DNA of 35,406 nucleotides, taken from Micromonosporaceae bacterium. GTDB lineage: Bacteria > Actinomycetota > Actinomycetes > Mycobacteriales > Micromonosporaceae. The translations under genes were made by a program, and so were the position numbers. The notes beneath the pieces are model-generated. The model was not told where the DNA came from. It ran no database searches and saw nothing but the letters and a program-made list of their open reading frames with translations. Location: contig JAFGOK010000007.1 of the NCBI GenBank assembly GCA_016926535.1, positions 1 through 35,406 of the forward strand, in the 5' to 3' direction. Positions 3,499-33,778 of this stretch are shown here, one piece after another. Each line of letters starts with the position of its first letter. The stretch's first letter is position 1.

Positions 3499-3864
3499 CA
3501 TGTCCGAAATGTAGCCACGCGCCCGAGCGTATGACCATGAGGTGTCCTCAGTTGGTGCCCGTTGTCGGGAGTTCCGCGACACGCGACTGTTTGTCGTCGA
3601 ACGAAGGAGAAGTCCACTCCGTCGAGAGGGGTGGTCGTCGATTGGTGCAACGGCGACCCGCCAGGCTCCGGAAACTGGGCTACGACGGGTTCCTGGCCGC
3701 CGTGATGAGGCCAGAGCCAGATCCCAAGACCGCCTGACTGGAGGACCTGGTGACCGTTGATGGGCTCCTGGTTCGATTCGACCGGGACTGCGCGTCCTGC
3801 GTCGAACCGCAGCCATACGGTCGCACATGGTTTCGCGTGCTCGACACGAGACCACCAGGACGGA

Positions 3865-4620
3865 TCATCGAAGGGACAGTGGCCGCAGGATCTGGCTGGC
3901 GAACAGTCGGCGGAAATGGTCGACGGCTCGGTCGGGACCGGTCCCGCCATGGATGACGACGCCGGTTTCGAGGCTGTGCTCAACGCCGGACTGGGTGAGG
4001 TTGACGCTGCTGACAAACAGGATCTGCCGGTCGGCGACGGCGAGTTTGGCGTGCATCTTCGCCCCCGGGCTCGGTCGCGTGTCCGCGGGCCAGTGCCACA
4101 GCCGTATGCCGGACAGGCCGGCGAACGCGGCGGCTGGTTCGGTACCGGACAGGGCCGAGCCGGCGCCGGCGAGGGTTTCCACCACGATGTCAACGCCGAC
4201 ACCGCGCAGCAGCGCCGCTTGGAGCGCTGCGATGACCGGCGGGTACGGTCGGGCGGAGTACGTGACCAGGAGCAGTTCGCGGTTCGCGGCTGCGATCAGG
4301 TCGACGAGTACCGCCGCGGTTGCCCGTACCGGAGCGGCGGCGCTGGCGGGGCCGCTGACGACAAGTTCGACCTGTTGGCGCTGCACGCCGCGCTGGTAGC
4401 CGTCGGCGGCGCCACGCAGGTACGCCGCCGCAGCAGCAGCCGTCAGCCCCGCCGAGCGTTGGGCGGCCAGTACCGCTTGGACCAGGGATGCTTCCCCGGC
4501 GGCGTTCCAGGCGACCGCATCGGTGGGCCAGTCCTGTCCGATCTGATCGGCGACAGTGTGGACTCGTTCGGCGGGCAGTCGCTGGACGAGTGCGGCCACG
4601 GCAGCGGCGTACTGGCGCAT
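3865..4620 (-). CDS. drmC: DISARM protein DrmC, phospholipase D-like
   Basis: 'GAKMHAKLAVADRQILFVSSVNLTQSG' is an HxKxxxxD (HKD) PLD motif. ATG at 4620 shares one base with the drmB stop (TGATG). Confidence 0.87.
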   Translation of the reverse strand: MRQYAAAVAALVQRLPAERVHTVADQIGQDWPTDAVAWNAAGEASLVQAVLAAQRSAGLTAAAAAAYLRGAADGYQRGVQRQQVELVVSGPASAAAPVRATAAVLVDLIAAANRELLLVTYSARPYPPVIAALQAALLRGVGVDIVVETLAGAGSALSGTEPAAAFAGLSGIRLWHWPADTRPSPGAKMHAKLAVADRQILFVSSVNLTQSGVEHSLETGVVIHGGTGPDRAVDHFRRLFASQILRPLSLR

Positions 4621-6599
4621 CAGCGTGCCGTGCCGGCAGTCGCCGACAGCATCGAACTGGGGGTCGACCCAGCCGCGCTCGCCGCCGACGGCGTACCGGC
4701 GAATGTCGGCAGGTCGCGCAGCAGCGCCAGGTCCGGGTCGCCGACTGGTACCACGAGGCGGCGGTCGAGGAACCGGTTGCCGCGTTCGCAGGTGGTTTCG
4801 GAGACGAACAGGCACACGTGGCAGGCCGCGCCGTGCAGGAAGTCGTCGGATTGGCCGGGTAGCCGCTCGGCGCACAGGGGATCCGATGAGCAGCTCATCG
4901 CATCGCGCAGGGCGCAATCTGTGACGCGGGTCAGGGCGTCGGGTTCGCCGAGGGCGACCAGCCCGCCGAGGGTGCCTTCCGCGTCGGGGACGGCCGTGTA
5001 GATGAGGATCCCGGCGCGTGGATCGTCGTCGGTTCCGGCGTAGACGCGTTCGGCCAGGCTGGCTGAGCTGTATCCGCATTCCAGGGCGATCGCGCGGATG
5101 AGCAGGTGTGACAGGGTGTGTAGGGCGATGTAGCGGGCGCCGGGCCAGTGGCGCATCGGGTCGAACGGACCTTTGATCCGCTCGGAGTACCGGTTACGGC
5201 GGTAGCGGGCGTAGGCGTCGGCGTGGGCGGCGATCGTGGCGCTGGCGGTGACCCGTTCCTCCCAGGCAGCGATGAGGTCGTCGCGCACGCGCAGGAAGAG
5301 CCCTTCACCGCGGATCTCGGAGGCTGGCACCCATGGCGGGGTGGCTTCCCGGCTGATCGGGGCGCGTTCGACGAGGTCGGGGTCGGCCGGGTCGGGGGCG
5401 TCGAGGCGGGTGAAGCCGACCAGGGCGCGGACCATGCGTAGCCGTTCGACCTGCACCACGTCGGCCAGCGCGGTCTGCAGTCCGGCGGGGACGCCGCCGT
5501 CGTCGCGGAGCGTGAAGTCGGGCATCGGCTCGGGTACCGGTTTGGTGGTGAACACCTCCCATTCGGGCATCAGCAGGTCGGGGCGGGCTTGGCCTGCGGC
5601 GAAGGCGTCGGCGTGCCCGTCGGCAGCCAGGCTGGCCCGATGGGCGGCGATCGCCTCCCAGACCTGGGCGGCGGGCCAGGCCCGCAGGGATGTGAAGTTC
5701 GGCTGGGTAAGGGCGAACGCGAGCACCTCCGGGCCGGTCACGCCGGCCAGCGCGCCGTCCCACATCTCCACGACCTTGGCCCGCAGTGCGCTGGCGCCGG
5801 TCGGCGGCACCGCCAGCACCGTCAGCGTCTCGGCGAACCACTGGTTGGAGGCGCCAACGACGAGGACTTTCGGGGTCTGCTCGCACGGGCGGAACACGCC
5901 GAGGTGCGGGTGCCGGCCGCGGCACAGGGGCAGGTTGCGTTCGCCTGCCGCGCCCAGCGCTTCGCGGATGTTGCGGTGCATCTGGCAGTTCGTGCATGTG
6001 ATCTTGACGTTGGCGCCGAGGTTACCGCCGTGGTCGTCCATCCGCAGGGTGGGATGGGTGGCCTTGGCGCAGGGTGCTCCATGGTGGACGAATTCGACGT
6101 AGGGAAAGTCGTCGAGGTGCCCGTTGGTGCAGGCGAGCAGGAACCGGGCTGGTACCGCCAGGCGCTTCTTGTTGCCGCGGCAGGGGTGGAAGAATCGGGC
6201 CTCGTCGGGGCGGCGGGCTTTGGCGTTGATGAACCCGAACGTCTTGGAGTCCAACGCGGCGAGGGTGTTGCAGGCGGTACAGCGCAGCCACTGGGGAAAC
6301 GGGGTGACCGGGACTCCGATGCGCAGTGCCAGGTCGCTTGGGTCTCCGGGGGTCTCCTCCAGCCAGGGGGCGGCGCGTAGTTCGACCACCCCGGGCTGGC
6401 GGTAGACGTCACGGACCGCCGCCAGCAGCCGGGGTTCGTGGATCGGCTGCCAGCTCGGCACGGCCTGGTACGACCAGTCGTCGACCCCGCGGACCAGCAC
6501 GGTGAAGTTGGGCAGGTCGATCAGGCCGCCCACCCCGCCGGTGAACATCAGATGACTCGGGCGTGCGGTGCCCACCCGCCGCCGGTACGCCTCGTTCAC
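4620..6599 (-). CDS. drmB: DISARM protein DrmB, DUF1998 domain
   Basis: 659 aa; Cys-rich C-terminus 'CALRDAMSCSSDPLCAERLPGQSDDFLHGAACHVCLFVSETTCERGNRFLDR' typical of DUF1998/MZB-type proteins. GTG start overlaps the drmA stop (GTGA). Confidence 0.9.
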   Translation of the reverse strand: MNEAYRRRVGTARPSHLMFTGGVGGLIDLPNFTVLVRGVDDWSYQAVPSWQPIHEPRLLAAVRDVYRQPGVVELRAAPWLEETPGDPSDLALRIGVPVTPFPQWLRCTACNTLAALDSKTFGFINAKARRPDEARFFHPCRGNKKRLAVPARFLLACTNGHLDDFPYVEFVHHGAPCAKATHPTLRMDDHGGNLGANVKITCTNCQMHRNIREALGAAGERNLPLCRGRHPHLGVFRPCEQTPKVLVVGASNQWFAETLTVLAVPPTGASALRAKVVEMWDGALAGVTGPEVLAFALTQPNFTSLRAWPAAQVWEAIAAHRASLAADGHADAFAAGQARPDLLMPEWEVFTTKPVPEPMPDFTLRDDGGVPAGLQTALADVVQVERLRMVRALVGFTRLDAPDPADPDLVERAPISREATPPWVPASEIRGEGLFLRVRDDLIAAWEERVTASATIAAHADAYARYRRNRYSERIKGPFDPMRHWPGARYIALHTLSHLLIRAIALECGYSSASLAERVYAGTDDDPRAGILIYTAVPDAEGTLGGLVALGEPDALTRVTDCALRDAMSCSSDPLCAERLPGQSDDFLHGAACHVCLFVSETTCERGNRFLDRRLVVPVGDPDLALLRDLPTFAGTPSAASAAGSTPSSMLSATAGTAR

Positions 6600-9500
6600 C
6601 GGTTTCTCCTTCGCTCGGCTGGCAGCGCGCCGAGTTCGTCACCGTCTCCGCCGTCGCCGCCATCATCACCGCCGCCATCATCACCGCCGCCATCACCACC
6701 ACCGCCGCCGTCGCCGACGCCGCTGGGTGCGTTGTCCTCGTCGGTGCCGGCCGCCGGTGTGCCAAACGACCAGTCCGGGGCGTCATAGACGGTGTCGAAC
6801 AGCCCCGATCCGGGCAGCAACAGGTTGATCTCGTTCTCGGTCTCCCGCATCGACCGGCCGACGGTCAGATCGGTCCACCCGCCGTTGCCGGCCGGCTCCA
6901 GCAACCCGACGATCCTTGTGCCGCCGGACTTCGCATCGGCGTATCCCAGCCGCGCGCTGCCGCGCTTGCGCTCAGCCCACCGATCGCACAACGTGTTGAT
7001 GCGTTCGGCCAGATAGTCGCTGTTGCGCCGCCCGCCAGCGCGGGCCGCCCGTGCCAGCATCCGCTGGCGGAGTGCCGTCACCGTCGCCCCGGCCAGGTCG
7101 ACCTCGAAGGCGTTGGCGTTGACCGAGTACCGCTCGGTAACGTTGCGGACCGCGGCGACGAACGTGGCCGCTGTCCCCCGGTCCAGGCTGCGCCGGGAGT
7201 ACGGGGTGACGCTCAGCGCCTCGACCTGCCGGTAGAACGTGGCGTGGTAGTGGGCGAAGTCCTCGAAGTGGGCCAGGTCCCGTGGCCTGGTCCAGTTGTA
7301 GACCGTCACCACCAGGCCGGGGCCGTCCTCAGGTGCCCGGCCGACCCGCGAGGATGCCTGGATGTACTCGGCGGTGTTCTTCGGCTGCCCGGTGACGACC
7401 ATCAACGCAAACCGCGACACATCCACGCCGACCTGCAGCATCGACGTGGCCAGCACAACATCAACCGGTGTGTGCCCCCACCCTTTGGGCAGGTCCGCGT
7501 CGCGTTTGCCGGCCTGCGCCGCACGGGCCTCGGCGACCATCGCCGCCCGCCGGGCGCTGGTGTGCCGCTGGTCGTCGAAGCGCTCCTCCAGCTCCTTGAG
7601 TACCGCGGCGATATCCCCGGAGTTGATCCGCGAGGTCAGCTCCCGGATGCTGAGCATCCCACCGATCGGCGTCCGGTTGGACAGGCCCCGGCGGCCACCG
7701 TTGCGCCGCACCCGGGTGGTCACGTCGTCGTCGAGGTAGCGGCGCATACCCGCCAGTTCCCGGGTGGCGTTGAAGTACCCCACCAGGGTCAGGTACGGAT
7801 CGGCGGGCGCCCCGTACCGGTCGAACAGGCTCTGCCCAGCCAACAGCAGGATCTCGGCCAGCCGGATCTCGGCGTGCTTCATCCGCACCCCGTGCGCACA
7901 TACCCCCAGGTAGCGGCGCCCCGGCGCGGCCGGGCCGACCGGCTGCTCGGTGGAGAAGAACGTGTCCGAGGCGTCCAGCACCTGCGGCGGAAAGATCGAA
8001 AGATCACGCGCGTAGAGCCGACGCACCTGCTCGGCGGCCCGTTTCGTGGTCGCCGTCGACGCGATGATCTTCGGCCCGGTCCGTACCCCCTCGGGGGTCA
8101 TCCACGCGCACAACTCCTCGACGGCCGACTCAAACAGCCCGACCGTCGTCCCCAACGCCCCGGAGATCAGGTGCAACTCGTCCTGGATGATCAGATCTGG
8201 TGGGCGCAGCCGCGTCACCGGCACGCTCACCACCTTCGCCAGCCCCGGCTTGGGGTTGTGCCGCCCCCCGCAGTCGACCTTCCCGTCCAGATCCGGGTGG
8301 CGGTATCCGTGGCGCGGGCAGCGCTGGCTGACCCGCCCGAACAGCATCCCGGCGAACCCGTACCACGGCAGCTGCGCCAGCTTGTCAACGGTCGCGATCA
8401 GCAGGCTCGGCGGGTACCGGTATATCTCCTCGTCGACGGTGAGGATCGGCAGCCCGCGCTGCTCCTGGTTGGCCTCCCCGTCCACGCCCGGCACCGTGGC
8501 GGTGCGGGAGAACGGGCACGCCTCCGGCCCCTCGCCCCGGCCGCAGTACAGCCGAACCCGGCGGCGGTCGTCGTCGGGGTGCAGGTCCCGGTGGGCTTGC
8601 AGTGGCTCGCCGCACCATGGGCACACCAGTGTCTGCAGCACGTTGACCTTCGCCCCGCCCCGGCCGGTCTCGCGGGCCTCGGCGATCTGGTCGGCCGCGT
8701 CGCGGTACCAGTTCGGCGACACCGACCCGCCGACCCACAACCCGATCCGGAACGGCACCCCGCCCCACGTCTGCGGGTCCTCGCGGCGCAGCAGCTCCGC
8801 CGCGCAGACCAGCGCCGCCGCCCGCTGGAACTGCTGCGCGGTCAGCAGCCGCAGCGTGTAGCGCATCAGCACCGCGACCCCGTCACCGCCGTCACGGGCG
8901 TCCACACCGGACCCGACAACGCCCTGCAGGCGGCGGATGGCGAACGTGTACGCCGCCAACCCCAGGTACGCCTCGGTCTTGCCGCCACCGGTCGGGAAGA
9001 ACAGCAGGTCCACGCTGCCGGTGCGCTGCGCGTGGCCCGGGTCGGTCAACGCCGGCAGGTTCAGCAGCACGAACGCCAACTGGAACGGCCGCCACATCGC
9101 CGCCCGCGGCTTTGCCACCGCCGCTGCGGCGTCCTGGTAGGACAGTGTCGGGTCGTCGCCGCGCAGCCCACCGATCGCGGTGGCGCGCCGCTGCGCGGCC
9201 ATCGCCTGGTTGGCGAACGCCAACGCCCGCCGCGCCTGCCCGGCCTGCGGCGTGTGGCCTGACAGCAGCTCGACCCCGTCGCGGATGCGCTGGGCTACCT
9301 GCCGGGCCCGGTGCACCGCCCCGGCCGCCGCGTCCCGCAACCCATCCGGCAACCCCGCGACCCGGGCGTCCTGGGCGGTCAGCCACCGGTCGTAGCCGTC
9401 AACCAGACCCCCCAGCGCCGCCGCCAACCCCGCCGGATCATCGTCGGCCGCCAGCCGCGCCAGCTCATCCATGCCCAGCGGGACGCCCGAGGCCGCACCC

Positions 9501-10474
9501 GCCGCGCTCACCTGCGGCACCTCGTACACCGGAAGCCACGTCGTCGCCAGCCGCCACGCCCGCCGCTGACCGGCGCGCACCTCGGCGTGCACCGCCACGT
9601 TGTGGCCGGTGGCATGGCGCAACCGGTCCCGGTACAGCAGCCGCAGATGCCGCTCTTCGGGATCACCCCCACCAGCAGCACCCCGCGCCCCGACACCCGG
9701 ATCGAGCGGATCATCGGCGGCGCAGAACACCGCTGCCTGCCCGCCGGGAGCGGTGACGGTGATAGCGGGCTGGAACAGCCACGTCACATCCCCGTTGGGT
9801 TTCTCCTCCGGCTGGCAGTTGACCAGCGTCAGCCGCACCACCCGCCGCCCGTCACGCGACCGGACCCGCACCCGCAGCCACACTCCGCCGGTCCCGTCGT
9901 CGATTTCCCCACCGGTGACACCGTCAGCCAGCGGCACACTGAACTCGCCGGCACCGTCGAGCGCGACCGTCAACGGCCGCGCCACCGGCTCGCGCACCCA
10001 CCGCCGCTTCGGCCGCCCTTCCTCGCTGGGGACCTCCTCCGGGCGGTAGCGCCCCCACTCCACCAGGACCGACACCGCCGCCGTCGCGGCGTCCACCGTG
10101 AACGACAGCCCCATCGACGACGCCCACATCCGCCCCGCGTGCTGCGGCGACACCGTCTCCGGCAGGTCGGCCTCCCCCGCCCCGTCCACGCCAAGATCGA
10201 CATCCGGCATGAGCATCTGCCCCGCGGCAGCACCCCCGGGCTCCGGGCGTGGGCCGAGCATCCCCGCCAGGTACCGCTCCCGCGGTCCCATCGACCCCAC
10301 CGCGAGCGCCTCGGTCGGCCCATCCCACGGCCCCAGCAGATCCCGGGCGACCAGGTCGCCGAGCTCATCGCGGATCTGGTAGCCGGTGGCCGCCTCGAAC
10401 TCCTGCGGCACCTGCCAGGCCGTCGGCCCACCATCGCGCGAGGCGCTGGGCCCGGCTGAAGCTGGATTCGACAC
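6596..10474 (-). CDS. drmA: DISARM helicase DrmA
   Basis: '[21 protein letters not shown]' Walker A, '[23 protein letters not shown]' DELH box, '[36 protein letters not shown]' motif VI. GTG at 10474 is preceded by GGGAGG; ORF open to 10516. Confidence 0.92.
   Translation of the reverse strand: [1292 protein letters not shown]
6641..6720. repeat. in-frame low-complexity tandem repeat encoding a Gly/Asp-rich C-terminal tail of DrmA
   Basis: ~15-bp unit (caccgccgccatcat) repeated with variation; encodes [24 protein letters not shown] on the minus strand. Confidence 0.8.
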
Positions 10475-10548
10475 GGGCGTGCCTCCCTCGTCCTCGTACG
10501 CCTCCCCGCGCCGCACCCCGGCACGCGGTCAATGAACGTTCTGATCCG

Positions 10549-12105
10549 CTACTGAGGTGGTCCGGCCGATTTTGCAGAGTCAACGGCCGAGACGCCGCTC
10601 GCCGGCCGAGGCTGCCGCGGCCCCGGCACCGGCCGAATTCCCGACGCCGCCGCACCACGCCGCGCCGCCGACGTACCGTCGTCGCCGTTCCGGCGCCGCC
10701 ACGACCGACGGCGAAGATGCGGGTACAGGATCAGCATCACGGGAACCAGCGCGACCAGGACCGAGAATCCGTAGGCGCCCAGATAGTGGTGATCGAACAT
10801 CGAACGGTCCGCCCTGACCTGCGTGGCGTTGACGCCGAAAAACGCGACCAGGAACCCGATCGGCACCCCGATGATGCTCAGGACGCTGGCGGCAACCGCG
10901 TTCCACCGCTGTTTGCGGTCCTCCCACGCACGGTCCCGGATGTCGATCGCCATGATCTCCGATCGGATACTGCCGGCCAGCTGAGTGAACATCCGGCTGA
11001 GCGTGTCAGCCTGCGCCTGCAGGTCCATCGCCTGATACAGGGCCGAATGGAAGCTTTCGATGCGCATCAACGGGAACTCGACGCTGAAGGTCAGGTCAAA
11101 TTCGAGGTTCCCCAGACGATCGACCAGATCCTCAAGGTCCCGGCGCTGCTGGATACCCACATCCTGCTCCTGGTGATCATGCCGGAACTCCCGGACCCGG
11201 CGGTGCGCCTCCCGCCAGATCTGCCGAAACCGCGACGCTGTACCGACTGCCTGCACCGTCGACAGAAACACACTGTCCTGGACGAAATGCTGATGGCCGT
11301 ACAAGAAACTGGCATACGGCGTGACAGCGCCAAGCGTCCGCGGCGGCTGGTTCATCTCCTTGGGACGCACCATCCGGGTGAATTCTTCACGATACGGCGG
11401 ATCGTTTCGGAACAGGATCTCCTTGACCACCTCACTGTCAGGTGCTGGCACGCCCGCAACATTCTCGGCGAACACGATCTGGTGCCGCTCCGGCAGCAAC
11501 GCAACGGTCTCACCCTCGATGGCCTCAACACCCACATCCTCGGCAAGCACGGCGATGTACTCCGCCAGCGGCACGCCGCCAATCGCCACGCCAGGGTTGA
11601 TGGAGCGCTCCAACACCTCACACACCACTGACGTACTCTGCGTCAGCAGCGGGCTCGCCAGGTCGAACGTCACCGCCGCGACGACCTGATCGGCCGGCAA
11701 CCCGAACAGCCAGCACTCCGCCATCACGATGCCGGTACTCGCCAGCGCGTCGTCACGCTCGCCGCAGTCCCCAGCGCCGAACGTCACCTGCTGCGGCTCG
11801 ATCAACCTGTGCAGCAACGGGCGGGGCAGCTGATCCTGGAAGTAGTTGTAGAAGTCCCGCAGTCGCCCCAGTTCAAAACTCGGCTCAGCATCGCGGGTCG
11901 CATTCTCCCGGTGCAGCCACTTGGTCGCATAGATGTTGATGACACGCACTTTCGCCGTCAATTCTTCCAACGGCACCGACGACTGCGGCGGCAGGTCTGG
12001 AACAGGCGCGCCGTCAACGCCGTCGGTCCCATTCGTCTCCACATCCGCCGCACGCGACCAGAACGGTGGCCGCCACCCAGCCTGGCCACCTCCCGCGCCC
12101 GTCAT
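10549..12105 (-). CDS. CorA-like two-transmembrane protein embedded in the DISARM operon
   Basis: 518 aa; long N-terminal soluble part, helical stretch 'MDLQAQADTLSRMFTQLAGSIRSEIMAIDIRDRAWEDRKQRWN', then TM1 'VLSIIGVPIGFLVAFFGVNA', short loop and TM2 'GAYGFSVLVALVPVMLILYPHL'. Position and shape match CorA, with GVN in place of GMN. ATG shares a base with the drmMI stop. Confidence 0.75.
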   Translation of the reverse strand: MTGAGGGQAGWRPPFWSRAADVETNGTDGVDGAPVPDLPPQSSVPLEELTAKVRVINIYATKWLHRENATRDAEPSFELGRLRDFYNYFQDQLPRPLLHRLIEPQQVTFGAGDCGERDDALASTGIVMAECWLFGLPADQVVAAVTFDLASPLLTQSTSVVCEVLERSINPGVAIGGVPLAEYIAVLAEDVGVEAIEGETVALLPERHQIVFAENVAGVPAPDSEVVKEILFRNDPPYREEFTRMVRPKEMNQPPRTLGAVTPYASFLYGHQHFVQDSVFLSTVQAVGTASRFRQIWREAHRRVREFRHDHQEQDVGIQQRRDLEDLVDRLGNLEFDLTFSVEFPLMRIESFHSALYQAMDLQAQADTLSRMFTQLAGSIRSEIMAIDIRDRAWEDRKQRWNAVAASVLSIIGVPIGFLVAFFGVNATQVRADRSMFDHHYLGAYGFSVLVALVPVMLILYPHLRRRSWRRRNGDDGTSAARRGAAASGIRPVPGPRQPRPASGVSAVDSAKSAGPPQ

Positions 12106-15100
12106 CAGAACAGCTCCGACTGGTTCGAAGTCATCCGACGTCCTCTCGCCCGCGCCGGCCGCGAGATCTGCTCGGCGGCGTACCGCTCCTGGTTGAGTTC
12201 CAGCAGTCGGTCGAGGATCTCCTGCCGCACCACCGGTCCGACCGTGTACCGGATCCCCTGCCTGGTCTCGTGGAAGCCGTGATCCAGCCCGGCCGAAAGA
12301 AGATCGTTCCAGCCGTACGCGCGGGCCACCGCCTCATCGATCGTGACGTGGATACGGCGTAGCTCCACAATATCCGGATCAAGGCAGACCGGGTTGTGCA
12401 CCAGGTTGTACGTCGCCGTCAGCCCCGCCTGCCGCGCCAGCATCAACTCCCGCCGATACCCGTCCAGCCGCTCCCCCGCCACCCGCAACTCACCCGTCAA
12501 CTCCGGCCGAGCGAACGTCTCGAACACATCCGTCGGCGAGTAGTTGAGATCAGCCTTCATCGTCGAACTCCGAGTGATCGCCCACCAGTAGTGCGCAGCG
12601 CTCGACAGCAACCCCAGCAGCGCCGGATCATCCGAAGCGAACACCCCGAGTTTGTGCGCGAACACCTGCCCGGTCGGCACCATCACCGGCATCACGACCT
12701 TGCTCACCAGAGTGATCACCACGACCCGCTCCAGCCCCCGGATCGCGCCGTACAGGGCTGGCGCCCGTTCAGCGAACTGCCACCAACGGTCGCGCCGAAC
12801 GGCGCGATTGTTTCGGGCTCGCTCGGGCTTGACGAGACGTTCGACCTGCTCGAAGCACTCCCCGTGGGTGGCAGCGCGTTCCTGTGGCCAGTCGTGGAAG
12901 TTGATGACCCAGCGGCTGGCCGCACCCTCCGGGGACGAGTTGAGGTCCTGGCCGTTGAGGTACGGAAACAGCACATCGGCGTTACGTCGGTCGGTGGTGA
13001 TGAGTCGCCGGGCACGCGCGGGCTCCATCGTGAACCCGAGACCGAGGATGTTCGAACCTTGGAACGCGATCCCGCTGTTGGCGGCGAGTCGGTGGGCCGG
13101 GCCGCCGACCCGTGATCGTGCGTCGAGAGCGGTGTTGATGCCAGTCACCGTGATCTCATCAAGCACCCGGGGCACTTCGGCGGCGACTTGCGGATGCGAG
13201 GTCCAGACCGCGCAGTACTGCAGGACCGCCGACTTCGATGGCCACGGGCGGCTCTTGACTGCCTGGCGGATCTCGACACCTGTGGCCACGATCTGGTCAA
13301 GCCCGATCTCGCGGGTGTCTCCTTGGGTGAGCGTGTTGGTGGCGATCAGCCCGGTCTGGCCGCGCCCGCTGAGCAGGGTGTGTGCCCGTAGCAGGAAGTA
13401 GGCGACCAGGTCTGCGCTCCCCCGCGCGCCACCGCCGATCCCGTGGACCAGGTGTTCGCGGTAGGCCGGGCCGAGCGCACCGGTCAGCTTCTGCCCGCCG
13501 AGGAAGGGCGGGTTGCCGATGATGGCGTCGAAGCCGCCGGCCTCGAAGACCTCGGGGAAGGCCAGCGGCCAGTGCAGCGGCTGCCGGGTGAAAGCGCCCG
13601 ACGGCAGGTCGGTGGCCAGCCACGCCTTCGAGTACTGTCGCGCGGTGTCGGCTGCTTCGCTCGTGCCAGAGGACAGCACGCGGACCTGGTCTGCGACGGC
13701 CAGTGAGGCGGCGTCGAGGCCTTTTGTGCCTCGGCCTGCGTGGGCGAGGGCCGCGCCGACGATGAGGTCGGCGTAGCTTGCGGCTTGCGCGGTGCGGGCC
13801 TGGATCGCGGCCAGGCTCTCGCGTTTGGATACGACGGCGGCGAGGTCGTTGCCGGGGCGGCCGGCGAGTTTGCGGCGGTCGTTGGCGATCTCTTCGATCA
13901 GTGGTCGCACGTGGTCCAGCTCGGCGAAGATTGTGTCCTCGTGGAGTTTGTGTCCTCGGGCTGGGTCGAGGTGCAGGGCTTCGATCTGGTCGATGCTGGT
14001 CACGCCGAGCAGCGAGTCGCCGGCCACGAGCCGGTCGTCGAGGAAGGTGAACGGTCGGGTCGGGTCCATGGAGACCAGCCACAGCGAGAGCTTGGCCATC
14101 TCCACGGCCATCGGGTTGATGTCGACGCCGTACAGGCAGTGCTGGATGATCTCGCGGCGGGCGTCGATCATCACTGGGTCGGCCTCGGCGTCGTCGGTGG
14201 CGTCGATGCGGCGGGTGTCGGCCAGGTATTCACGGGCTGCGATGTGTCCCTCGACCGACCAGGCTTCCACCAGCCGGCATGCCAGGTACCGGCAGGCGGC
14301 GACCAGGAAGGCCCCTGAGCCCATGGCGATGTCGGCCACCCGTAGCGCCAGGATGTCGGTACTCGGCCGCAGCGCCCACTGTGTTCGGTCCGCGGTCTGC
14401 AGCGGGCCAGGTGCGTAGACCAGCGGTTCCAGGGCGCCCTCGACGACCTGCTCGGCGAGGAACCGGGGTGTGTAGTGGGTGCCGGTGTTGCGCCGCAGCG
14501 GCGAGGCGGTGACGTACAGGGCGCCTTCGCGGATCACCGTGGGCAGGCCGCGCAGGTCCTCGCGGAGGATCCCGACGAACGGCAGTAGCCGCTCGGCCAG
14601 GTTCCGGTCGCCGCCGGCGGCGGCCAGCAGCCGCCGGATCGCCTCGGTGCGTTCCGCCCCGTCGGGCGGGGTCAGCTTGCGTTCCAGGGACTTCGCCGTG
14701 CCGATGCCGGAGTCCTTGTACGCGGCGGCGATCCCGTTGGCCAGGGTCTGCGGGGTGCGGTGGGTGTCGGCGAGGTGTTCCAGGTCGGCCAGCGGCACCT
14801 CCTCCTCCAGCCCGGCCTTGCCGATCAGGCCGACGACGGTCTGCTCGGCGCGGTAGCCGTCGAAGGAGAGCAGGCCCTCGTAGACGTAGCCGATCTGCTC
14901 GACGTCGATCGCGCGGAACGACAGCCGCCGCAGCTCCCGTTTGATCACGACGTACTGCACCGAGCGGAGCATGTGCAGCACGGTGCGGTCGTCGACGGCG
15001 ACGCCGGCCAGCCACGGGTACCGGTCGGGGTCGAAGATCGAGCCGTCGTAGGCGGGCATCGCCACGCGCGGGTGGTGGATGCCGTAGTACACGGCGGTGA

Positions 15101-16199
15101 ACAGCGCCAGCAGCCGCCGCCACGCCGCCGTCGAGTGTTCCAGCTCTTCTTCGCTGCCGGTGGCGTCGGCGCGTTGCTTGAGTTCGTCGCAGAGCCGCCC
15201 GGCCGAGTAGGCCGCCTCGTAGACCGGGTTGTCGGCGGGCAGCAGGCCGCGTTCCTCGGCGAACAGCAGGAACACCACCCGCATCATCACCGACACGGCC
15301 GCCCGGTAGACCTGCTCTGCGGGGACGTCGGCCAGCCCGGCCTCGCCGGCCTCGCGGACCCGCAGGTCGTGGCGGCCGATCGCGTCGACGAGCTGCTCGA
15401 CGGCGCGGCGGACCTGCACGCCGAGGGTTTCGGTGACCTCCTCCTGGTTGTCGCGGCTGTCGGCCAGCAGTACTGGCAGCCGCTCGGCCTGTGGTACCCC
15501 GAAGAAGCGGCGGCGGTGCAGCAGGCTGGCGAAGGCGCGGACCACGACCCGGTCGGCGGACTCCGGCCAGGTCACCGAGTCGAAGACGGCGACCCCGGTG
15601 ACGCCGCCGCGGGGTGCCCAGACCAGGGCCCACCAGCGGCCGTCGGTGACCAGGGCGAGGGGGACGTCGTGGTGGCGGCACAGCAGGGCGGCGCGGTCGA
15701 CCGGGGTCGCCGGCCACGGGTCGCCGCCGATGCGGCCGGTCGGATGAGTGCCAGCCGGGTGGACCAGGCCGAGCAGTGCCGGGGTGTCGGTACCCGGTTC
15801 GACGAGCGTGAACGTCGGGGTGAGTGTCGTGTCGTGCTGGGTGACCGGCATCGCCAGCGCCGCCATGCCGTCGGTGTGCAGCGCGTCGCCCCAGCCGAGC
15901 AGTCCATGCTGGACGAAGCCGAGCCAGCCGGCGGGGTCGGTGCGCCGGTCGGCGTGGGCCAGGCGCAGCGCCTCCCGGGTGGGCTGGTCGACCGCGTCAA
16001 GGGTCGGCCAGGCGCGGGTCAGCACCGGCACGGTCAGGAACGGGCCGGTGACGTCAACCAGGGCCAGCCAGTCCAGGTGCTGCTGGCGCCCGTCAACCGA
16101 CGGGCCTCGTCCCCGGGAGGCGGTCGCGCCCGCTGCGGGGCTTCGACGCGATGCGGGGTTTCTGCTCGGTGCTGGGCTTCGACGTGGGGCCGGGCTCAT
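12105..16199 (-). CDS. drmMI: class 1 DISARM N6-adenine DNA methyltransferase DrmMI
   Basis: 1364 aa; SAM motif 'VADIAMGSGAFLVAACRYLA', catalytic 'IIGNPPFLGGQKLTG' (NPPF). Start overlaps drmD stop (ATGA). Confidence 0.92.
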   Translation of the reverse strand: MSPAPRRSPAPSRNPASRRSPAAGATASRGRGPSVDGRQQHLDWLALVDVTGPFLTVPVLTRAWPTLDAVDQPTREALRLAHADRRTDPAGWLGFVQHGLLGWGDALHTDGMAALAMPVTQHDTTLTPTFTLVEPGTDTPALLGLVHPAGTHPTGRIGGDPWPATPVDRAALLCRHHDVPLALVTDGRWWALVWAPRGGVTGVAVFDSVTWPESADRVVVRAFASLLHRRRFFGVPQAERLPVLLADSRDNQEEVTETLGVQVRRAVEQLVDAIGRHDLRVREAGEAGLADVPAEQVYRAAVSVMMRVVFLLFAEERGLLPADNPVYEAAYSAGRLCDELKQRADATGSEEELEHSTAAWRRLLALFTAVYYGIHHPRVAMPAYDGSIFDPDRYPWLAGVAVDDRTVLHMLRSVQYVVIKRELRRLSFRAIDVEQIGYVYEGLLSFDGYRAEQTVVGLIGKAGLEEEVPLADLEHLADTHRTPQTLANGIAAAYKDSGIGTAKSLERKLTPPDGAERTEAIRRLLAAAGGDRNLAERLLPFVGILREDLRGLPTVIREGALYVTASPLRRNTGTHYTPRFLAEQVVEGALEPLVYAPGPLQTADRTQWALRPSTDILALRVADIAMGSGAFLVAACRYLACRLVEAWSVEGHIAAREYLADTRRIDATDDAEADPVMIDARREIIQHCLYGVDINPMAVEMAKLSLWLVSMDPTRPFTFLDDRLVAGDSLLGVTSIDQIEALHLDPARGHKLHEDTIFAELDHVRPLIEEIANDRRKLAGRPGNDLAAVVSKRESLAAIQARTAQAASYADLIVGAALAHAGRGTKGLDAASLAVADQVRVLSSGTSEAADTARQYSKAWLATDLPSGAFTRQPLHWPLAFPEVFEAGGFDAIIGNPPFLGGQKLTGALGPAYREHLVHGIGGGARGSADLVAYFLLRAHTLLSGRGQTGLIATNTLTQGDTREIGLDQIVATGVEIRQAVKSRPWPSKSAVLQYCAVWTSHPQVAAEVPRVLDEITVTGINTALDARSRVGGPAHRLAANSGIAFQGSNILGLGFTMEPARARRLITTDRRNADVLFPYLNGQDLNSSPEGAASRWVINFHDWPQERAATHGECFEQVERLVKPERARNNRAVRRDRWWQFAERAPALYGAIRGLERVVVITLVSKVVMPVMVPTGQVFAHKLGVFASDDPALLGLLSSAAHYWWAITRSSTMKADLNYSPTDVFETFARPELTGELRVAGERLDGYRRELMLARQAGLTATYNLVHNPVCLDPDIVELRRIHVTIDEAVARAYGWNDLLSAGLDHGFHETRQGIRYTVGPVVRQEILDRLLELNQERYAAEQISRPARARGRRMTSNQSELF

Positions 16200-19100
16200 C
16201 GGGTCGCCTCCCGCCGGGGTACCAGGTAGATGACCGCGACCGGGAACAGGTGCGGGGTCGGGTCGGTGTACCGGTGGGCGATGCGGGCCAGTTCCGCGTC
16301 GCGTTCGGCGTCGAGACGTTCCAGCCGGGCCTGCCAGGCGGCCCGGTCGGCGCGCAGTTGCGCCGCCTCCCGCTCGTCGCCGATCGCCAGGGCCAGCTGG
16401 GTGTACTCGGACTCCGGTGCGTCAGCGTCGTCGAGAGCCTGCCGCAAGGTGGCGGCGAACCGGTCGAGGTTGGCGGTGATCCGCCGCTCCTCGTCGTCGC
16501 GACGTTTGGCCAGCCGGCCGTGCAGCGAGGTGAGGCGCTCGTCGCGGCGATGGTGCAGCGCGGCGATGAGCCCATCGCGGGTGCGCGACCAGCCGCCGGC
16601 CAGCCGGGAACCGATGTGACCGGGGGCGGGACGGCCGTCGGCGAGCGCGGCGGTCAGCAGCCGGTCGAGCAGGCCGAGGTTGTCCAGACGGGCGAACCGG
16701 CCATCGTCGCGGACCCAGCCGCCGGCGTGGAGGACCTCCTCGTGTAGCCGGATCCCGTCCGCGCCGAGGATCAGCAGCCGGGCGTAGGAGACGGCGATGA
16801 CCTGGTCGACGGCTGAGTCGTCGGTGAGCACGGCGGCGACCCGGTGCAGGTCGGTGTCGGCGCTGGAGACCGCGGCCTGCAGCAGCCGGGTCGACATCGC
16901 CACCAGCGGGTGGTTGAGGTGGGCCAGCACCACGTCGTCGCCCCGGTCCGGTTCGGCGGCCACGGCCTGGTCGAAGGTGACCGGCCGGATCCGCTCCGGG
17001 TGGTCGGGGTGGGCCAGCCCGGCGGTGGCCCGCGCCCACGCCCCGGTCAGCGGGGGGACCTCGAACAGTTGGCCGCCGGCTGGGCGCAGCGGCTGCTGGC
17101 GTGCCAGGTCGAGGGCGGTGTCGACCACCCGCCGCACCGTCGCCGGGCGCAGGTTCAACGTCTCCACGGTCCGGTCGAGCTGCTCACGCAACCGCTTGAC
17201 CTGACCGGAGATGTCCGCGTCGGAGGCGACGCGGCCTCGGCGCCGTTGGGTCGTCTTCGCGCTCAGGGCGGCGTCGACGTCCAGGCGCTCGCCGAGCATC
17301 CGCCGCTGCACCGCCTCAGCGAGGACGGCGTTGACCGAGCCGAGGTCCTCGGCCATCTGGGACACCTTGCGGGCCACCCGGGACAGGAACTCCAGGTCGG
17401 CGGCGAAGCCGTCGTGGGCGTGCTCCCAGCCGGCGCCGACGAAGTGGTGCACCTGCGGCTGGCGGCGCTGGCCGTACCGGTCGATGCGGCCGATGCGCTG
17501 TTCGAGCCGGTTCGGGTTGAACGGGATGTCGTAGTTGACCAGCCGATGGCAGTGGAAATGCAGGTCGATACCCTCGCTGGCGGCGTCGGTGGCCAGCAGG
17601 ATCCGCACCGGGTGCTCGCCGGGCCGGGTCTGGAACGCCCGCCGCAGCCGCTCCCGGTCCGCGCCGGACAGACCGCCGTGCAACAGCTCCAGCTTGTCGC
17701 CGCCGAGCCCTTCCTGCCGCAGCAGCCGCTCCAGCCAGGTCTGGGTGTCTCGGTACTCGGTGAAGACCACCACCCGCTCGTCGCCCCACCGCCCACCCGG
17801 CTGGCAGACCTCCCGCAGGTACGCGATGAGCGCCGTCGCCTTCGCGTCAGGGTTGGCGGTGTGGTGGCGGGCCCAGTCCTCCATCTGCTCCAGCAGCGCC
17901 AGCTCCGCCGGGCCTGGTCGGGTCGGGTCGTCACTCGTTTCGATCTTGCCCGCGCGGCCGAGGGCGGTCTCCTCCTCCGCGGCCAGGGCCTCGTCGTCGA
18001 GGTCGGCGGTGGTGTCGAAGAAGTCGTCGAGCCACGACTCGTCCTCGATGCCAGCGAAGGCAGCACAGCCCACGCCGGCAAAGCCGCCGAGGCTGCCCAG
18101 CGCGCCCTGGCCGCCGCTGCCGGCACGCCGGCCGCTGGCGAGCGTCTCGCGGTACACCCCGACAGTACGGCCGAACGCTTCCGGCGAGGAGAACAGCCGC
18201 TTCTTGAGCAGCAACGTGACCAGGTCGGCGGCCCTACGCCCGCGCCGGTTGGCACCCAACCGCGTGGCGCGCAACTGCGCGAAGCGGGTCAGCAGGTCGT
18301 GGACCTCCCGCTCGGTGTCCGGGTAGGTCACCTCGATCGGTTCGGTGTGCCGCAGCGGGAACTTCGCCCCGCCCGGGTCCACGTCGCGTTTGAGCCGGCG
18401 GACCACCACCTCGCGGCGGGCGGTCTCGTCCGGCTCCACCCCCCGGGCGAACCGCTGGTCATCGAGCAACTCCAGCAGCGCCTGAAACGACTCCGGATAT
18501 CCGTTATGCGGGGTTGCGGACAAAAACAGCCGGTGCTCAAAATGGGGGACCAGCCGGCGCAGCAGCTTGGTCTGCTGGGAGTCCACGGCATAACGCTGCT
18601 TGGGCGCTGCCGGGGCGACGTGGTGCGCCTCGTCAAGGACCAGCAGATCGAACTCCCGCCGAGCCGGCGGCGGTTGGTGCGGATCCGCCGACGGCAGCAC
18701 CTCGTCGAGCAGCCGCTGCGCCCGCGGTGAACGCAGCCACGGCAACGAGACGATCACCAGCGGGTACACCCGGAACGGGTTGGCCGCCGACCCGTGCGTG
18801 TGACGCAGCACCGCGCACTGCTCAGAGTTGACGATCGTGAAATCCAGGCCAAACTTGTCGGCCATCTCATCGCGCCACTTCACCGCCAGCCCAGCCGGGC
18901 ACACCACCATCACCCGCCGCGCCCGGTGCCGCAGCAGCAACTCCCGCACGACCAGCCCAGCCTCGATCGTCTTGCCCAACCCGACGTCGTCGGCGAGCAG
19001 CAGGTTCACCCGCGGGGCGGTCAACGCCCGAGCCACCGGCTCAAGCTGATAGTCCTCAACCGCCACCCCGGAACGAAACGGCGCCTGCAGCGTGTTCACA

Positions 19101-19456
19101 TCGGCCGAGGTCGCCGCACCCCACCGCACCGCATCCAGGAACGCCGCCACCTGGGCCGGCTCGTCGAAACGGCCGTCAACCTCCGGCAGCGACCCCGCCG
19201 GCAGCACCCGCCGCCCCGGCTCGACCTCCCACACCACCGACAACGACTCGCCGTACCGGCCGTCCTCGACGCTCTGCAACTCCACCAGCGTCGAGCCAGC
19301 CATCCCGGCACTGACCGTCTCGTTGCCCCCAGCGCAGTCCCGCGTATCCGGCTGCGGCGGTGCGCCGTCAACGTCGGCAACGACCCACCGATGCCCGCGC
19401 ACCTCGACCAGCTTGCCGACCTCAGGTGCCGCCACCGCATGCGCGAGCGCCGTCAC
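16196..19456 (-). CDS. drmD: class 1 DISARM SNF2-family helicase DrmD
   Basis: 'LLLADDVGLGKTIEAGLVVREL' Walker A, 'LLVLDEAHHVAP' DEAH box, 'FLSATPHNGYP', 'RIGRIDRYGQRRQPQVHHF' motif VI. GTG at 19456 with AGGAGGG upstream; ORF open to 19567. Confidence 0.9.
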   Translation of the reverse strand: MTALAHAVAAPEVGKLVEVRGHRWVVADVDGAPPQPDTRDCAGGNETVSAGMAGSTLVELQSVEDGRYGESLSVVWEVEPGRRVLPAGSLPEVDGRFDEPAQVAAFLDAVRWGAATSADVNTLQAPFRSGVAVEDYQLEPVARALTAPRVNLLLADDVGLGKTIEAGLVVRELLLRHRARRVMVVCPAGLAVKWRDEMADKFGLDFTIVNSEQCAVLRHTHGSAANPFRVYPLVIVSLPWLRSPRAQRLLDEVLPSADPHQPPPARREFDLLVLDEAHHVAPAAPKQRYAVDSQQTKLLRRLVPHFEHRLFLSATPHNGYPESFQALLELLDDQRFARGVEPDETARREVVVRRLKRDVDPGGAKFPLRHTEPIEVTYPDTEREVHDLLTRFAQLRATRLGANRRGRRAADLVTLLLKKRLFSSPEAFGRTVGVYRETLASGRRAGSGGQGALGSLGGFAGVGCAAFAGIEDESWLDDFFDTTADLDDEALAAEEETALGRAGKIETSDDPTRPGPAELALLEQMEDWARHHTANPDAKATALIAYLREVCQPGGRWGDERVVVFTEYRDTQTWLERLLRQEGLGGDKLELLHGGLSGADRERLRRAFQTRPGEHPVRILLATDAASEGIDLHFHCHRLVNYDIPFNPNRLEQRIGRIDRYGQRRQPQVHHFVGAGWEHAHDGFAADLEFLSRVARKVSQMAEDLGSVNAVLAEAVQRRMLGERLDVDAALSAKTTQRRRGRVASDADISGQVKRLREQLDRTVETLNLRPATVRRVVDTALDLARQQPLRPAGGQLFEVPPLTGAWARATAGLAHPDHPERIRPVTFDQAVAAEPDRGDDVVLAHLNHPLVAMSTRLLQAAVSSADTDLHRVAAVLTDDSAVDQVIAVSYARLLILGADGIRLHEEVLHAGGWVRDDGRFARLDNLGLLDRLLTAALADGRPAPGHIGSRLAGGWSRTRDGLIAALHHRRDERLTSLHGRLAKRRDDEERRITANLDRFAATLRQALDDADAPESEYTQLALAIGDEREAAQLRADRAAWQARLERLDAERDAELARIAHRYTDPTPHLFPVAVIYLVPRREATR

Positions 19457-19736
19457 GAGCCCTCCTCGTCGTGGAGCGAACACGACAAGGCGCCAGTCAC
19501 CCCTCGCAGGGATGACCACCACCCATACGGCCGGGCTAACTCTCCCGGGGCGCCCGGGTTGCGCCAACGCACAAGGATCACTCGACGGCGGTCCACCGAC
19601 CGGCCAGCCGGCACCGCCAGCCCCGCAACGACCCCGACGCCTGACTGCGTTTCGGAGCAGCGACCATGGTCACGGCTCTGGCCGTCGACGCCGATCCGCC
19701 GATCCGCCGATGCCGACATGCGGGACAAGACCGCTA

Positions 19737-23138: not shown

Positions 23139-23377
23139 GTGGCTGGTGCCCTCAGGCGGCAGCCGGCAGGCTGGATGACATCCGGATCGGGTCCCTTCAG
23201 GGGCGTTGACTCGGAGGGCTCGCGACGGTCGCATTGATCTGGTCTGACGTCCCGGAGGGTGCTGGCCGGCATGTGGTGGGTTGCGACAATTCGGTGTCAT
23301 CGCGGCTGACCGGTCGGCTGGTCTGTTTCGTCGTCCCGATCGGTCGCGCCGTTTGCCTGTGGGAGAGGAATCACCTG

Positions 23378-24595
23378 GTGAGTGTCGCCACCGCTGGCGC
23401 GGCTTCAGCCGCCGTACTGCGTCGAGAGCTCGTGGATCAACTGGTTGCGGCCGGTTCGATCCGGTCGGACGAGGTCAGGGCGGCGTTCCTGGCCGTGCCT
23501 CGACACCGGTTTGCCCCGGAGGTGTCGCTGGAAGCGGCGTATGCCAATGACACGGTGCGCACCAAGCGTGACGCCCACGGGGTGACGACCAGTTCGATCT
23601 CCGCGCCCTGGCTGCAGGCGGTCATGTTGGAGCAGGCACAGATCCGCCCGGGGATGCGGTGCCTGGAGATCGGCTCGGGTGGCTTCAACGCGGCGTTGAT
23701 GGCCGAACTCGCCGGCCCCAGCGGCGAGGTGACCACGGTGGACATCGACCCTGATGTCACCGACCGGGCCCGCCGCTACCTGCCCGCCGCCGGGTACGAA
23801 CGGATCACCGTGGTCCTGGCCGACGCCGAGGCGGGTGTGGCGGCACATGCCCCCTATGACCGGATCGTGGTCACCGTCGGGGTATGGGACATCCCGCCGG
23901 CCTGGGTCGACCAACTCGTCGAGGGCGGCCGGCTGGTGGTGCCGCTGCGGATGCGAGGTCTGAGCCGGTCGATCGCGTTCGTGCGCGAGGGTGACCATCT
24001 GGTCAGCGACGGCCACGAGATGGCCGGGTTCGTGTCGGTGCAGGGTACCGGTGCGCACCCCGAGCACCTGGTCACCCTGCACGGTGAGGAGGTTGGCCTG
24101 CGGTTCGACGACCCGCCACAGGTCGACGCCGAAGCGCTCCGGGCGGCGCTGGGACAGCCCCGGACGGCGGTGTGGTCGGGGGTGCGGTTCGGGGCGATGG
24201 AGCCCTTCGACGGGTTGATGCTCTGGCTTGCCACCTGCCTGGACGACTTCTGCCTGCTGTGCCGGGCACGCACCGACGCCGCCCGGGCGCTGGTGGATCC
24301 GGCCTCACCGATCGCCACCCCGACACTGCTGGGCCAGCGGGGCTTTGCCTACCTCACCTACCGAGAAGTCGAGGCGTCCAACGGGGTGTTCGAATTCGGC
24401 GCCTACGCCCACGGCGAGGACGCCGCCGGACTCGCGAACACGCTCGTCGACCGGATCCGCGTCTGGGACCGCGATCACCGCCATGCTGCTGGCGCATGTA
24501 TCCGCGTCTATCCCGCCGGAGTCGCAGGCGATCAGATGGCCGCCGACCGGATCCTCGCCAAGCGACACACGAACGTCACGATCTCCTGGCCCTGA
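23378..24595 (+). CDS. FxLD-system methyltransferase (protein-L-isoaspartate O-methyltransferase-like)
   Basis: PIMT-like 'SSISAPWLQAVMLEQAQIRPGMRCLEIGSGGFNAALMAELAGPSGEVTTVDIDPDVTDRARRYL'; GTG at 23378 with GGGAGAGGAA upstream; next to an FxLD precursor. Confidence 0.87.
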   Translation: MSVATAGAASAAVLRRELVDQLVAAGSIRSDEVRAAFLAVPRHRFAPEVSLEAAYANDTVRTKRDAHGVTTSSISAPWLQAVMLEQAQIRPGMRCLEIGSGGFNAALMAELAGPSGEVTTVDIDPDVTDRARRYLPAAGYERITVVLADAEAGVAAHAPYDRIVVTVGVWDIPPAWVDQLVEGGRLVVPLRMRGLSRSIAFVREGDHLVSDGHEMAGFVSVQGTGAHPEHLVTLHGEEVGLRFDDPPQVDAEALRAALGQPRTAVWSGVRFGAMEPFDGLMLWLATCLDDFCLLCRARTDAARALVDPASPIATPTLLGQRGFAYLTYREVEASNGVFEFGAYAHGEDAAGLANTLVDRIRVWDRDHRHAAGACIRVYPAGVAGDQMAADRILAKRHTNVTISWP

Positions 24596-24652
24596 CCCTC
24601 CCGGGTGCCGGCCAGGCAGCACGCCCCCGTCACCGACGTACTGGAGGTTCCC

Positions 24653-24835
24653 ATGTCCCCAACCGCGACGACCGCCCCCAGCAATCTTCCCGCCGTCGAC
24701 GCCGACGCCGATGCGGTGTTCGACCTGGACGTCCATATCGTCGAATCCGGGCCGGTGATCGCTGAACTGTTGCGCAGCACCAGCGACAACTGCGGCGCCA
24801 CCTGCGCCTCGGCCTGTACCAGTTGCAGGTCCTGA
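24653..24835 (+). CDS. FxLD-family class I lanthipeptide precursor
   Basis: 60 aa: MSPTATTAPSNLPAVDADADAVFDLDVHIVESGPVIAELLRSTSDNCGATCASACTSCRS. Leader FDLD (FxLD) motif; core with 4 Cys and many Ser/Thr; GGAGG upstream of ATG; between MT and LanB. Confidence 0.93.
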   Translation: MSPTATTAPSNLPAVDADADAVFDLDVHIVESGPVIAELLRSTSDNCGATCASACTSCRS

Positions 24836-24900
24836 CAGTGCGATCCGGTGGGTCCGGCGCAGTCTCCGGACCCGCCGGGAATCGGCCCGGGGAGGTGGCG

Positions 24901-27900: not shown

Positions 27901-27987
27901 GACCCCGACCGGGAGCGCCTCGGTCGGCGGCTGGCCCGCGCCGCCGCGCTGCGGTGGACGGCCACCCACCCGGAAGCCACCCGATGA
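24901..27987 (+). CDS. lantibiotic dehydratase LanB, with C-terminal SpaB_C/thiopeptide-type domain
   Basis: N-terminus 'YQVLDAVLLRAATRRVDAAL', 'LRMTGRATPFGLFAGV' (LanB N-domain), C-terminal 'SSWLYAKLYTSPERHADLAARVPDLV...WWYLPYRDPQPHLRLRLRL' (SpaB_C). ORF open from 24823; GTG at 24901 with GGGGAGG favoured. Confidence 0.93.
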   Translation: MYQVLDAVLLRAATRRVDAALPGWPDLAPGTDPERWRDWLLRVWADESVVDAIAVASPVLAAGVARACADQVHDGRHLRRLVVSVARYLLRMTGRATPFGLFAGVTAAAIGAQPSLRWGQRHHPVLRADHAWVAGVATELEACPAVWTQLLVVANDLIELRDDRLVLACQHPGDDRMRSDRPPMAADVSIRATSAVLAVLTHTQSPITGGEVVDKLAVDFPTTTPAAAQAMLARLILLRVLLTELRAPMTTTDGLAHVRALLRAVGAPTSPAVAHTARMLDTVGEQIARHNRQPSAQERRSLRRMLLDRASHQSPEAAVPVTVDLRLDVDVRLPESLVPDARAAASVLTRLTPHPQGMAAWRDYHGAFLERYGAGALVPLNELVDPDTGLGFPATYRSSHRRITDASVTERDRRLLRLVQTTAAAGGQEIVLDEATITQIAGSEAAALAPPPHVELFAQIHAPDRDALRCGDYRLLVAGAARAAGATTGRFLDLLPAADRARFQAAYTQVRAHRAGAVAAQLVFPPLRSASEHAARAPIMLPHLVRAGTFPTGDTPAVGPDDLAVGGDLDGLYLVSLPDRRLIEPTAFNAVEFRHFSHPLARFLCEVPRALAAVYMPFTWGAASALAFLPRIRCGRVIVAPARWNLTTEDLPESGDGGQLWCEAAARWRRRWRVPDLVHLVEADNLLPLDLSEPAHLELLRIHLDRHGHARLDEAPSPQAFGWLDGHAHEIVIPLTATATPLPAPEVATVRVVRRDDGHLPGASSWLYAKLYTSPERHADLAARVPDLVAGCDSIVDWWYLPYRDPQPHLRLRLRLSDPNAFGTAAALLGAWASRLRGQRLLGRLELDTYQPETGRFGDGQAMAAAERVFATDSTAALAERVTATRATIPIDAVAAASLVDLAIAFTGDTTTGMRWLRDRLPHEPTTVDRTLHTAAVGLVTPQDGWARLHAVDADGALLRAWQDRRTALVDYRRQVDEHRSSDQVLASLLHLHHIRVHGIDPDRERLGRRLARAAALRWTATHPEATR

Positions 27988-32818: not shown

Positions 32819-33778
32819 CTACTGGATGACCGTCCAACTCTGGGCGCGATCACCGCGAATGAGGCTGTCGAGTCGTAGCCGAAGCTCGGCCCGTGCTGGG
32901 GGCTTGTGCGGCGCGGCACGCAGGTAGGCGGCCAGGGAGTGCAGTTCGCGCAGCTCACGGACCACCGGCCAGCCTGCCCACTCAACAAGGTCATAGCCAT
33001 AGGCGAGACTGAACTCCCGCCGCTGATCTTCGGTCAGGCCGAACCGGTTGCCGGGTGTCCCCCGTTGCGCCAGATCGATTTCGCGAGGTCCCCAGCAGAC
33101 ACTGTCCCAGTCTCCGAGCACGTAGCCCTGTGGATGACGCTGGTCAGCAAGGAGATTCCCGGTGTGGGCATCATTGTGAATCAGTCCCCGACCCAATGGG
33201 AAGTCCAGCGCCGCGTAGGCGGCCCCGGCGCAGGCCATCCGTTCGGCGAGGTAGGCCCGGTCCGGTGCCGAGAGCACCGGAATCGTGCGAGCGGCATCCA
33301 TCGTGATGGCGTGGGCGAGTCTGGCCAGCGGCCGGGCATCGGGTAGGGCGAACGGCGGGTCGGGTAGGCGATGGAGTTGCCGCAGCAGAGCGCCCAGCAC
33401 GGTCACGGGAGCTGGGCTTCCGGAGGCCGCATCGGGCAGATATCGCCACAGGCTGGCCACCATGTGATCAAGGTCCATCACGGCGGGAAAGGCCGGCTCG
33501 ACTGTCGGGAATCTCTGCCCGGTCAGCCAACTGGTCACCCGGAGGGCCGTGTGCCAGCGGTCGCGGTTCTCGTCAGTGGCGTCAGCGAGGCGGACTACGA
33601 TCTGCTCATCGGGAAGCAGGTAGATCCCGGAACCGTGCACGCGCAGAGCCCGAGCCCCGGCTGTGGAGAGCCCCAATCGGTGACCGAGGGCAAGCAACGC
33701 CGCCGCGAACTGGTCAGGGCCGGTCGAGGCCGAGGCCGAGGCCGAAGTTGACGCCGTCGGCGGCTCAGGCAGTGTCAT
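32819..33778 (-). CDS. aminoglycoside phosphotransferase (APH)-family protein
   Basis: 'GRGLIHNDAHTGNLLADQRHPQGYVLGDWDSVCWGPREIDLA' kinase catalytic and metal motifs. Start at 33778 overlaps the end of the upstream gene; ORF open to 33949. Confidence 0.87.
   Translation of the reverse strand: MTLPEPPTASTSASASASTGPDQFAAALLALGHRLGLSTAGARALRVHGSGIYLLPDEQIVVRLADATDENRDRWHTALRVTSWLTGQRFPTVEPAFPAVMDLDHMVASLWRYLPDAASGSPAPVTVLGALLRQLHRLPDPPFALPDARPLARLAHAITMDAARTIPVLSAPDRAYLAERMACAGAAYAALDFPLGRGLIHNDAHTGNLLADQRHPQGYVLGDWDSVCWGPREIDLAQRGTPGNRFGLTEDQRREFSLAYGYDLVEWAGWPVVRELRELHSLAAYLRAAPHKPPARAELRLRLDSLIRGDRAQSWTVIQ

Follow-up and report, generated by a model that had tools for sequence, protein, structure and literature searches.

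A class 1 DISARM operon in the window (the whole stretch of DNA that was analysed, 35,406 nt) was found to carry, between drmMI and drmA, an extra gene that was absent from 20 other class 1 loci and whose product is predicted to be a membrane protein of the CorA superfamily. We read it, tentatively, as an embedded and co-expressed accessory gene, not as a DISARM subunit; its product is plausibly an independent membrane-acting defence effector.

The DISARM operon and its embedded gene

All five genes by which class 1 is defined (drmA, drmB, drmC, drmD and drmMI; PMC9252829) were present on the minus strand, with canonical gene order and strand. Matches to PADLOC and NCBIfam were very strong, with E-values of 0 for DrmD, 0 for DrmMI, 1.6e-273 (PADLOC) and 0 (NCBIfam) for DrmA, 3.8e-68 and 6e-203, respectively, for DrmB, and 5.5e-90 for DrmC. 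These five matches, together with an open reading frame of 518 codons starting with ATG and having no internal stops, bear out the original observation of a complete canonical operon interrupted by an intact gene. The operon is laid out as follows, in the direction of transcription.

16196..19567, minus strand: drmD, SNF2-like helicase, 1123 aa (PADLOC DrmD, E = 0; NCBIfam NF038317, 1333.7 bits, cut-off 610)
12105..16199, minus strand: drmMI, MmeI/Eco57I-type adenine methyltransferase, 1364 aa (PADLOC DrmMI, 1724 bits; Pfam Eco57I and MmeI domains)
12114..12117, minus strand: GGAG, possible ribosome-binding site 8 nt upstream of the ATG of the CorA-like gene (sequence)
12103..12107, minus strand: TGATG, one base common to the drmMI stop and the start of the CorA-like gene (sequence)
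10549..12105, minus strand: embedded gene of the predicted CorA superfamily (2-TM-GxN), 518 aa (intact reading frame; homologues; AlphaFold model and Foldseek matches to CorA/ZntB)
6596..10516, minus strand: drmA, helicase, 1306 aa as called, start uncertain (NCBIfam DISARM_DrmAS, 1329.8 bits, cut-off 950)
4620..6599, minus strand: drmB, DUF1998/MZB protein, 659 aa (NCBIfam DrmB_fam, 676 bits)
3865..4620, minus strand: drmC, PLD-family nuclease, ~251 aa (PADLOC DrmC, 5.5e-90 on residues 155-402 of a longer reading frame)

The genes are tightly packed. There is a 4-nt overlap between drmD and drmMI; base 12105 is common to drmMI and the CorA-like gene (...CTGTTCTGATGACG, TGA/ATG), as had been noticed earlier; a gap of 32 nt leads to the called GTG start of drmA; drmA and drmB overlap by 4 nt; and drmB and drmC are joined by a 1-nt TGATG overlap, which sets the start of drmC. 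Thus the arrangement that links drmMI to the embedded gene also joins two core genes of the operon. The overlap and the GGAG upstream of it lend support, at the level of sequence, to the earlier proposal that the gene is integrated in the operon and probably translated together with drmMI. Its product is the only membrane protein of the operon.

The lower GC content of the gene (64.8%, with 70-72% in the drm genes) was rejected as proof of foreign origin, since a non-DISARM homologue from the same genus has 64.2%. Next to the operon, on the plus strand (23273-30301), we observed lanthipeptide-type biosynthesis genes coding for an FxLD-system methyltransferase (TIGR04364), two thiopeptide-type bacteriocin proteins (TIGR03891) and a LanC-like protein.

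Sequence and predicted fold of the CorA-like protein

That the gene is real is far above chance, as a homologue is 54% identical over 422 aa; the homologue profile, which itself includes the window protein, scores this protein at 2e-178. Hydropathy analysis gave exactly two transmembrane (TM) segments, both near the C-terminus.

10816..10905, minus strand: TM1, residues 401-430 (hydropathy; helix 362-430 in the model)
10828..10836, minus strand: GVN, a GxN motif, residues 424-426 (G and N invariant in 20 homologues)
10711..10788, minus strand: TM2, residues 440-465, followed by the basic tail RRRSWRRR (hydropathy and sequence)

TM1 is closed by F-F-G-V-N, with G424 and N426 invariant, so that hydropathy and the alignment of 20 homologues both agree with the earlier description of a large soluble region followed by a C-terminal two-TM hairpin with FGVN. 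The strict motif of classical Mg2+ channels is GMN; this form was not seen in the family, the window protein having GVN and its relatives GIN or GVN.

In the AlphaFold model of the window protein (pLDDT 77.4; 76.6 for a Streptomyces homologue) residues 1-45 have low confidence and are followed by a mixed strand/helix domain and then by long helices; helix 362-430 enters TM1, a short loop comes past GVN, helix 439-472 contains TM2, and the basic tail is again of low confidence. The top PDB matches to both models (the first 11 for the window protein and the first 12 for the Streptomyces homologue) were all CorA, ZntB, CmaX or MRS2 structures. The best Foldseek match had an E-value of 2.9e-4 and a probability of 0.96. 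The TM-scores were low (~0.1-0.35); thus the topology is supported, while the exact domain arrangement is uncertain.

Sequence comparison detected less. The Pfam CorA profile matched 0 of 20 family members at E<=0.1, no family in Pfam or PADLOC fitted the window protein, and searches of solved structures, with the single sequence and with a profile, returned nothing CorA-like; NCBIfam gave a weak match to ZntB (6e-4, residues 361-469). The claim of CorA likeness therefore stands at the level of fold, where comparison of two predicted structures with the PDB, a check proposed from the outset, returned CorA-type proteins as best matches, and does not extend to the Pfam profile or to strict GMN. 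Membership of the CorA superfamily, with GxN instead of GMN, is in this sense well supported by the models. With CorA, ZntB, MRS2 and CmaX the family shares a predicted mixed alpha/beta cytosolic domain, a long stalk helix running into TM1, GxN, a short loop, TM2 and a basic tail; it differs from them in G[VI]N and in its lack of Pfam CorA matches. Pentamer formation and cation transport are further traits of the superfamily; the window protein may likewise form an oligomer and conduct ions.

Homologues and the contents of the drmMI-drmA slot

Homologues were found in the same genus (54% identity), in Rugosimonospora (45%) and at two further Micromonosporaceae loci, as well as in Streptomyces, Thermomonosporaceae, Microtetraspora and one uncultured actinomycete; the viral contigs and phage records searched contained none. 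The family was present in 4 of 41 sampled genomes of the host's family and, among 51 sampled genomes of the host's order, in the host's genome only. In the tree the window protein falls inside a Micromonosporaceae group (100/100) of genes found outside DISARM. No drm genes were detected near the homologues at 21 distinct loci (up to 10 kb or more per side, less at contig ends); the sole match to drmD came from a helicase motif common to the DEAD-box helicase of one locus (L004). The neighbours of close homologues were ordinary, e.g. a 5'-nucleotidase and this helicase in L004 and an ABC transporter in L034.

At 16 of the 21 loci the CorA-like gene directly follows a gene for an APH-family kinase (Pfam PF01636, ~300 aa), which in most cases overlaps it by 11-32 nt (L002:17070-19455 and L007-L021). 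The hosts of this conserved pair, which in Streptomyces is apparently undescribed, are Streptomyces, Thermomonosporaceae and the uncultured actinomycete; its CorA-like member belongs to the same family as the window protein (~29-36% identity). The copies of Micromonosporaceae and that of Microtetraspora have no such kinase, and the window copy, with drmMI as its upstream neighbour, has none next to it. An APH kinase gene elsewhere in the window (32819..33718) was considered as a displaced partner and rejected: it lacks the WLMQN family signature (RELGMTTWLMQN) of the paired kinases and goes together with an NsdA-family regulator gene. Three of the four Micromonosporaceae homologues are flanked by genes for SAM-dependent methyltransferases (L004:12878-13657, L006:998-1948 and 3628-4263, L034:11751-12545); this was seen post hoc, only those of L004 and L006 cluster together, and it may be due to chance.

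We compared the window with 20 other class 1 loci having drmMI and drmA on one stretch, a small and phylogenetically unweighted set that draws in part on plasmid annotations. A CorA-like homologue was present in 0 of the 20: the window gene was the only match in a family profile search over L023-L027, L058-L070 and L079-L089, and tblastn of L098-L100 found no homologue. The slot was empty in 10 loci (L023, L025, L027, L060, L064, L067, L068, L079, L080 and L082; in L067 it holds ~1 kb without a clear gene) and occupied by unrelated genes in the other 10, with the following cargo.

L024: three reversed genes including YfbU
L026: GIY-YIG protein
L058: inverted partial drmMI and serine recombinase
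L061: adenosylhomocysteinase-like gene, NUDIX and HTH genes
L081: DEDD exonuclease, a PDC-S48 match (PADLOC, 3e-230)
L087: ATP-binding protein and O-methyltransferase
L088: xisI/xisH
L089: PIN-domain pair
L098: ~11 kb including a ShosA-like gene (PADLOC, 2e-61) and HTH genes
L099-L100: >20 kb of mixed genes

As drmD and drmMI were contiguous in all 14 actinobacterial loci where both were seen, the variable junction is that between drmMI and drmA, which is an insertion-prone slot. Plainly non-defence cargo is found there as well (transposases, NUDIX, recombinase, oxidoreductases), so position in the slot is by itself weak evidence of a role in defence.

Several of these loci deserve separate mention. 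The gene at L081:6472-8031, lying between drmMI and drmA, is the PADLOC candidate PDC-S48, a DEDD exonuclease whose C-terminal part includes a hydrophobic segment. L065, a close DISARM relative (drmA 59% identical) on a contig without drmMI, has ietAS-like ATPase and S8 protease genes, identified by PADLOC, directly upstream of drmA (L065:1123-4610). At L058:6174-8173 an inverted partial copy of the 3' part of drmMI, its target-recognition end, precedes the serine recombinase gene; this arrangement resembles an invertible cassette that would switch the specificity of DISARM methylation. A related recombinase is encoded upstream of drmA in L059 (7190-8569).

The host genome assembly (G000; 4.94 Mb in 790 contigs, 82% complete) has four drmA loci, on contigs C567 (the window), C400, C227 and C298; those of C567, C227 and C298 are of one related type (61-64% identical). 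It is possible that the genome has multiple DISARM systems or that some of these loci reflect contamination of the assembly (4.4% estimated). The other operon that could be read through, on C400 (L060), has no CorA-like gene. Two type III CRISPR Cas10 genes with GGDD were located outside the window (L101:1003-3099 on C380 and L102:427-2292 on C573).

Possible roles and known parallels

Nearly as likely as an accessory effector is a plain hitchhiker, an ordinary actinobacterial CorA-type transporter engaged in ion homeostasis or some small-molecule task, which landed in the slot and has no role in defence. The housekeeping genes around close homologues, the pairing of the Streptomyces gene with an APH kinase and not with defence genes, and the non-defence cargo of the slot all suit it. 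Still, the gene lies on the strand of the operon, overlaps drmMI by one base, is intact and has kept every residue that is invariant in the family, as expected of a co-expressed gene under selection.

The gene could also be a true but lineage-specific DISARM component, with an activity of DrmMI, DrmAB or DrmC directly triggering the membrane protein. Its position within the operon, the likely translational coupling and the want of any other membrane protein there are in favour; we regard this as unlikely, however, because a direct trigger fits poorly with the absence of the gene from all other sampled DISARM loci, including that on C400 of the same genome, and with homologues that are not near DISARM. 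For the same reasons the original proposal of a candidate new DISARM component is not supported: the conserved drm association that it had named as its own test was found neither around the 21 homologues nor in the 20 other operons. A more elaborate scheme would give DISARM a membrane effector arm: the CorA-type gate would open when DISARM recognises unmethylated DNA, or in response to a small molecule produced upon infection (possibly nucleotide- or SAM-derived), and the cell would go into arrest should DNA targeting not succeed. This seems to us rather improbable. Least credible, and very improbable, is the idea that a type III CRISPR system at another place in the genome supplies the signal in trans, as SAM-AMP or a different nucleotide product of Cas10: CRISPR CorA effectors do bind SAM-AMP, and the two Cas10 genes on other contigs leave such a route, but the known CorA effectors have their own Cas10 gene as a neighbour (PMC10600005), and among the operon genes we found no Cas10, phosphodiesterase, SAM lyase, NrN, DEDD or SAM-AMP lyase, so that the SAM-AMP link suggested earlier gained no positive evidence.

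We thus return to an embedded accessory gene. A CorA-superfamily gene of Micromonosporaceae stock would have been captured in the drmMI-drmA slot and would be co-transcribed with the operon; its product would assemble into an oligomeric membrane gate of CorA type, whose cytosolic domain may sense an infection-linked signal and open (or close) an ion path in response; this would add a second, membrane-acting layer to the DNA targeting of DISARM. Co-expression is favoured by the DISARM context, strand and overlap, a gated membrane protein by the family-wide conservation of the hairpin and cytosolic core, and a role in defence, weakly, by the defence genes that occupy this slot elsewhere; a membrane-acting accessory stays plausible since related DISARM operons carry candidate defence genes there. 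The single locus, the lack of a PADLOC match, the ordinary neighbours of homologues, the low TM-scores and the non-defence cargo count against it.

Should the embedded gene turn out to protect the cell, the class 1 operon would amount to a platform whose slot has exchangeable contents: depending on the genome, a CorA-type membrane protein, a ShosA-like protein or the DEDD exonuclease PDC-S48. Reading the drmMI-drmA interval would then be a cheap way to new defence genes, and CorA-type defence would extend beyond type III CRISPR. Separately, the Streptomyces kinase and CorA-like pair merits a test.

CorA-type defence proteins are already known from type III CRISPR (PMC10600005). Like these, the window protein has a large N-terminal domain and a CorA-like hairpin and is encoded inside a defence locus; unlike them, it has no adjoining Cas10 or SAM-AMP-degrading enzyme. 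Embedding in defence operons is likewise of a known kind, and guilt-by-embedding is treated as an accepted route to the discovery of defence genes in PMC12988326 (citing Payne et al. 2024). We found nothing relevant on CorA with DISARM in the literature searched, and a CorA-like gene within DISARM is missing from PADLOC 2.0.0; the arrangement was seen once, at this locus, with no recurrence, which sets it apart from the embedded candidates listed by PADLOC (PDC genes). Its layout is like theirs: a single gene lodged, on the same strand, among the core genes of a known defence operon.
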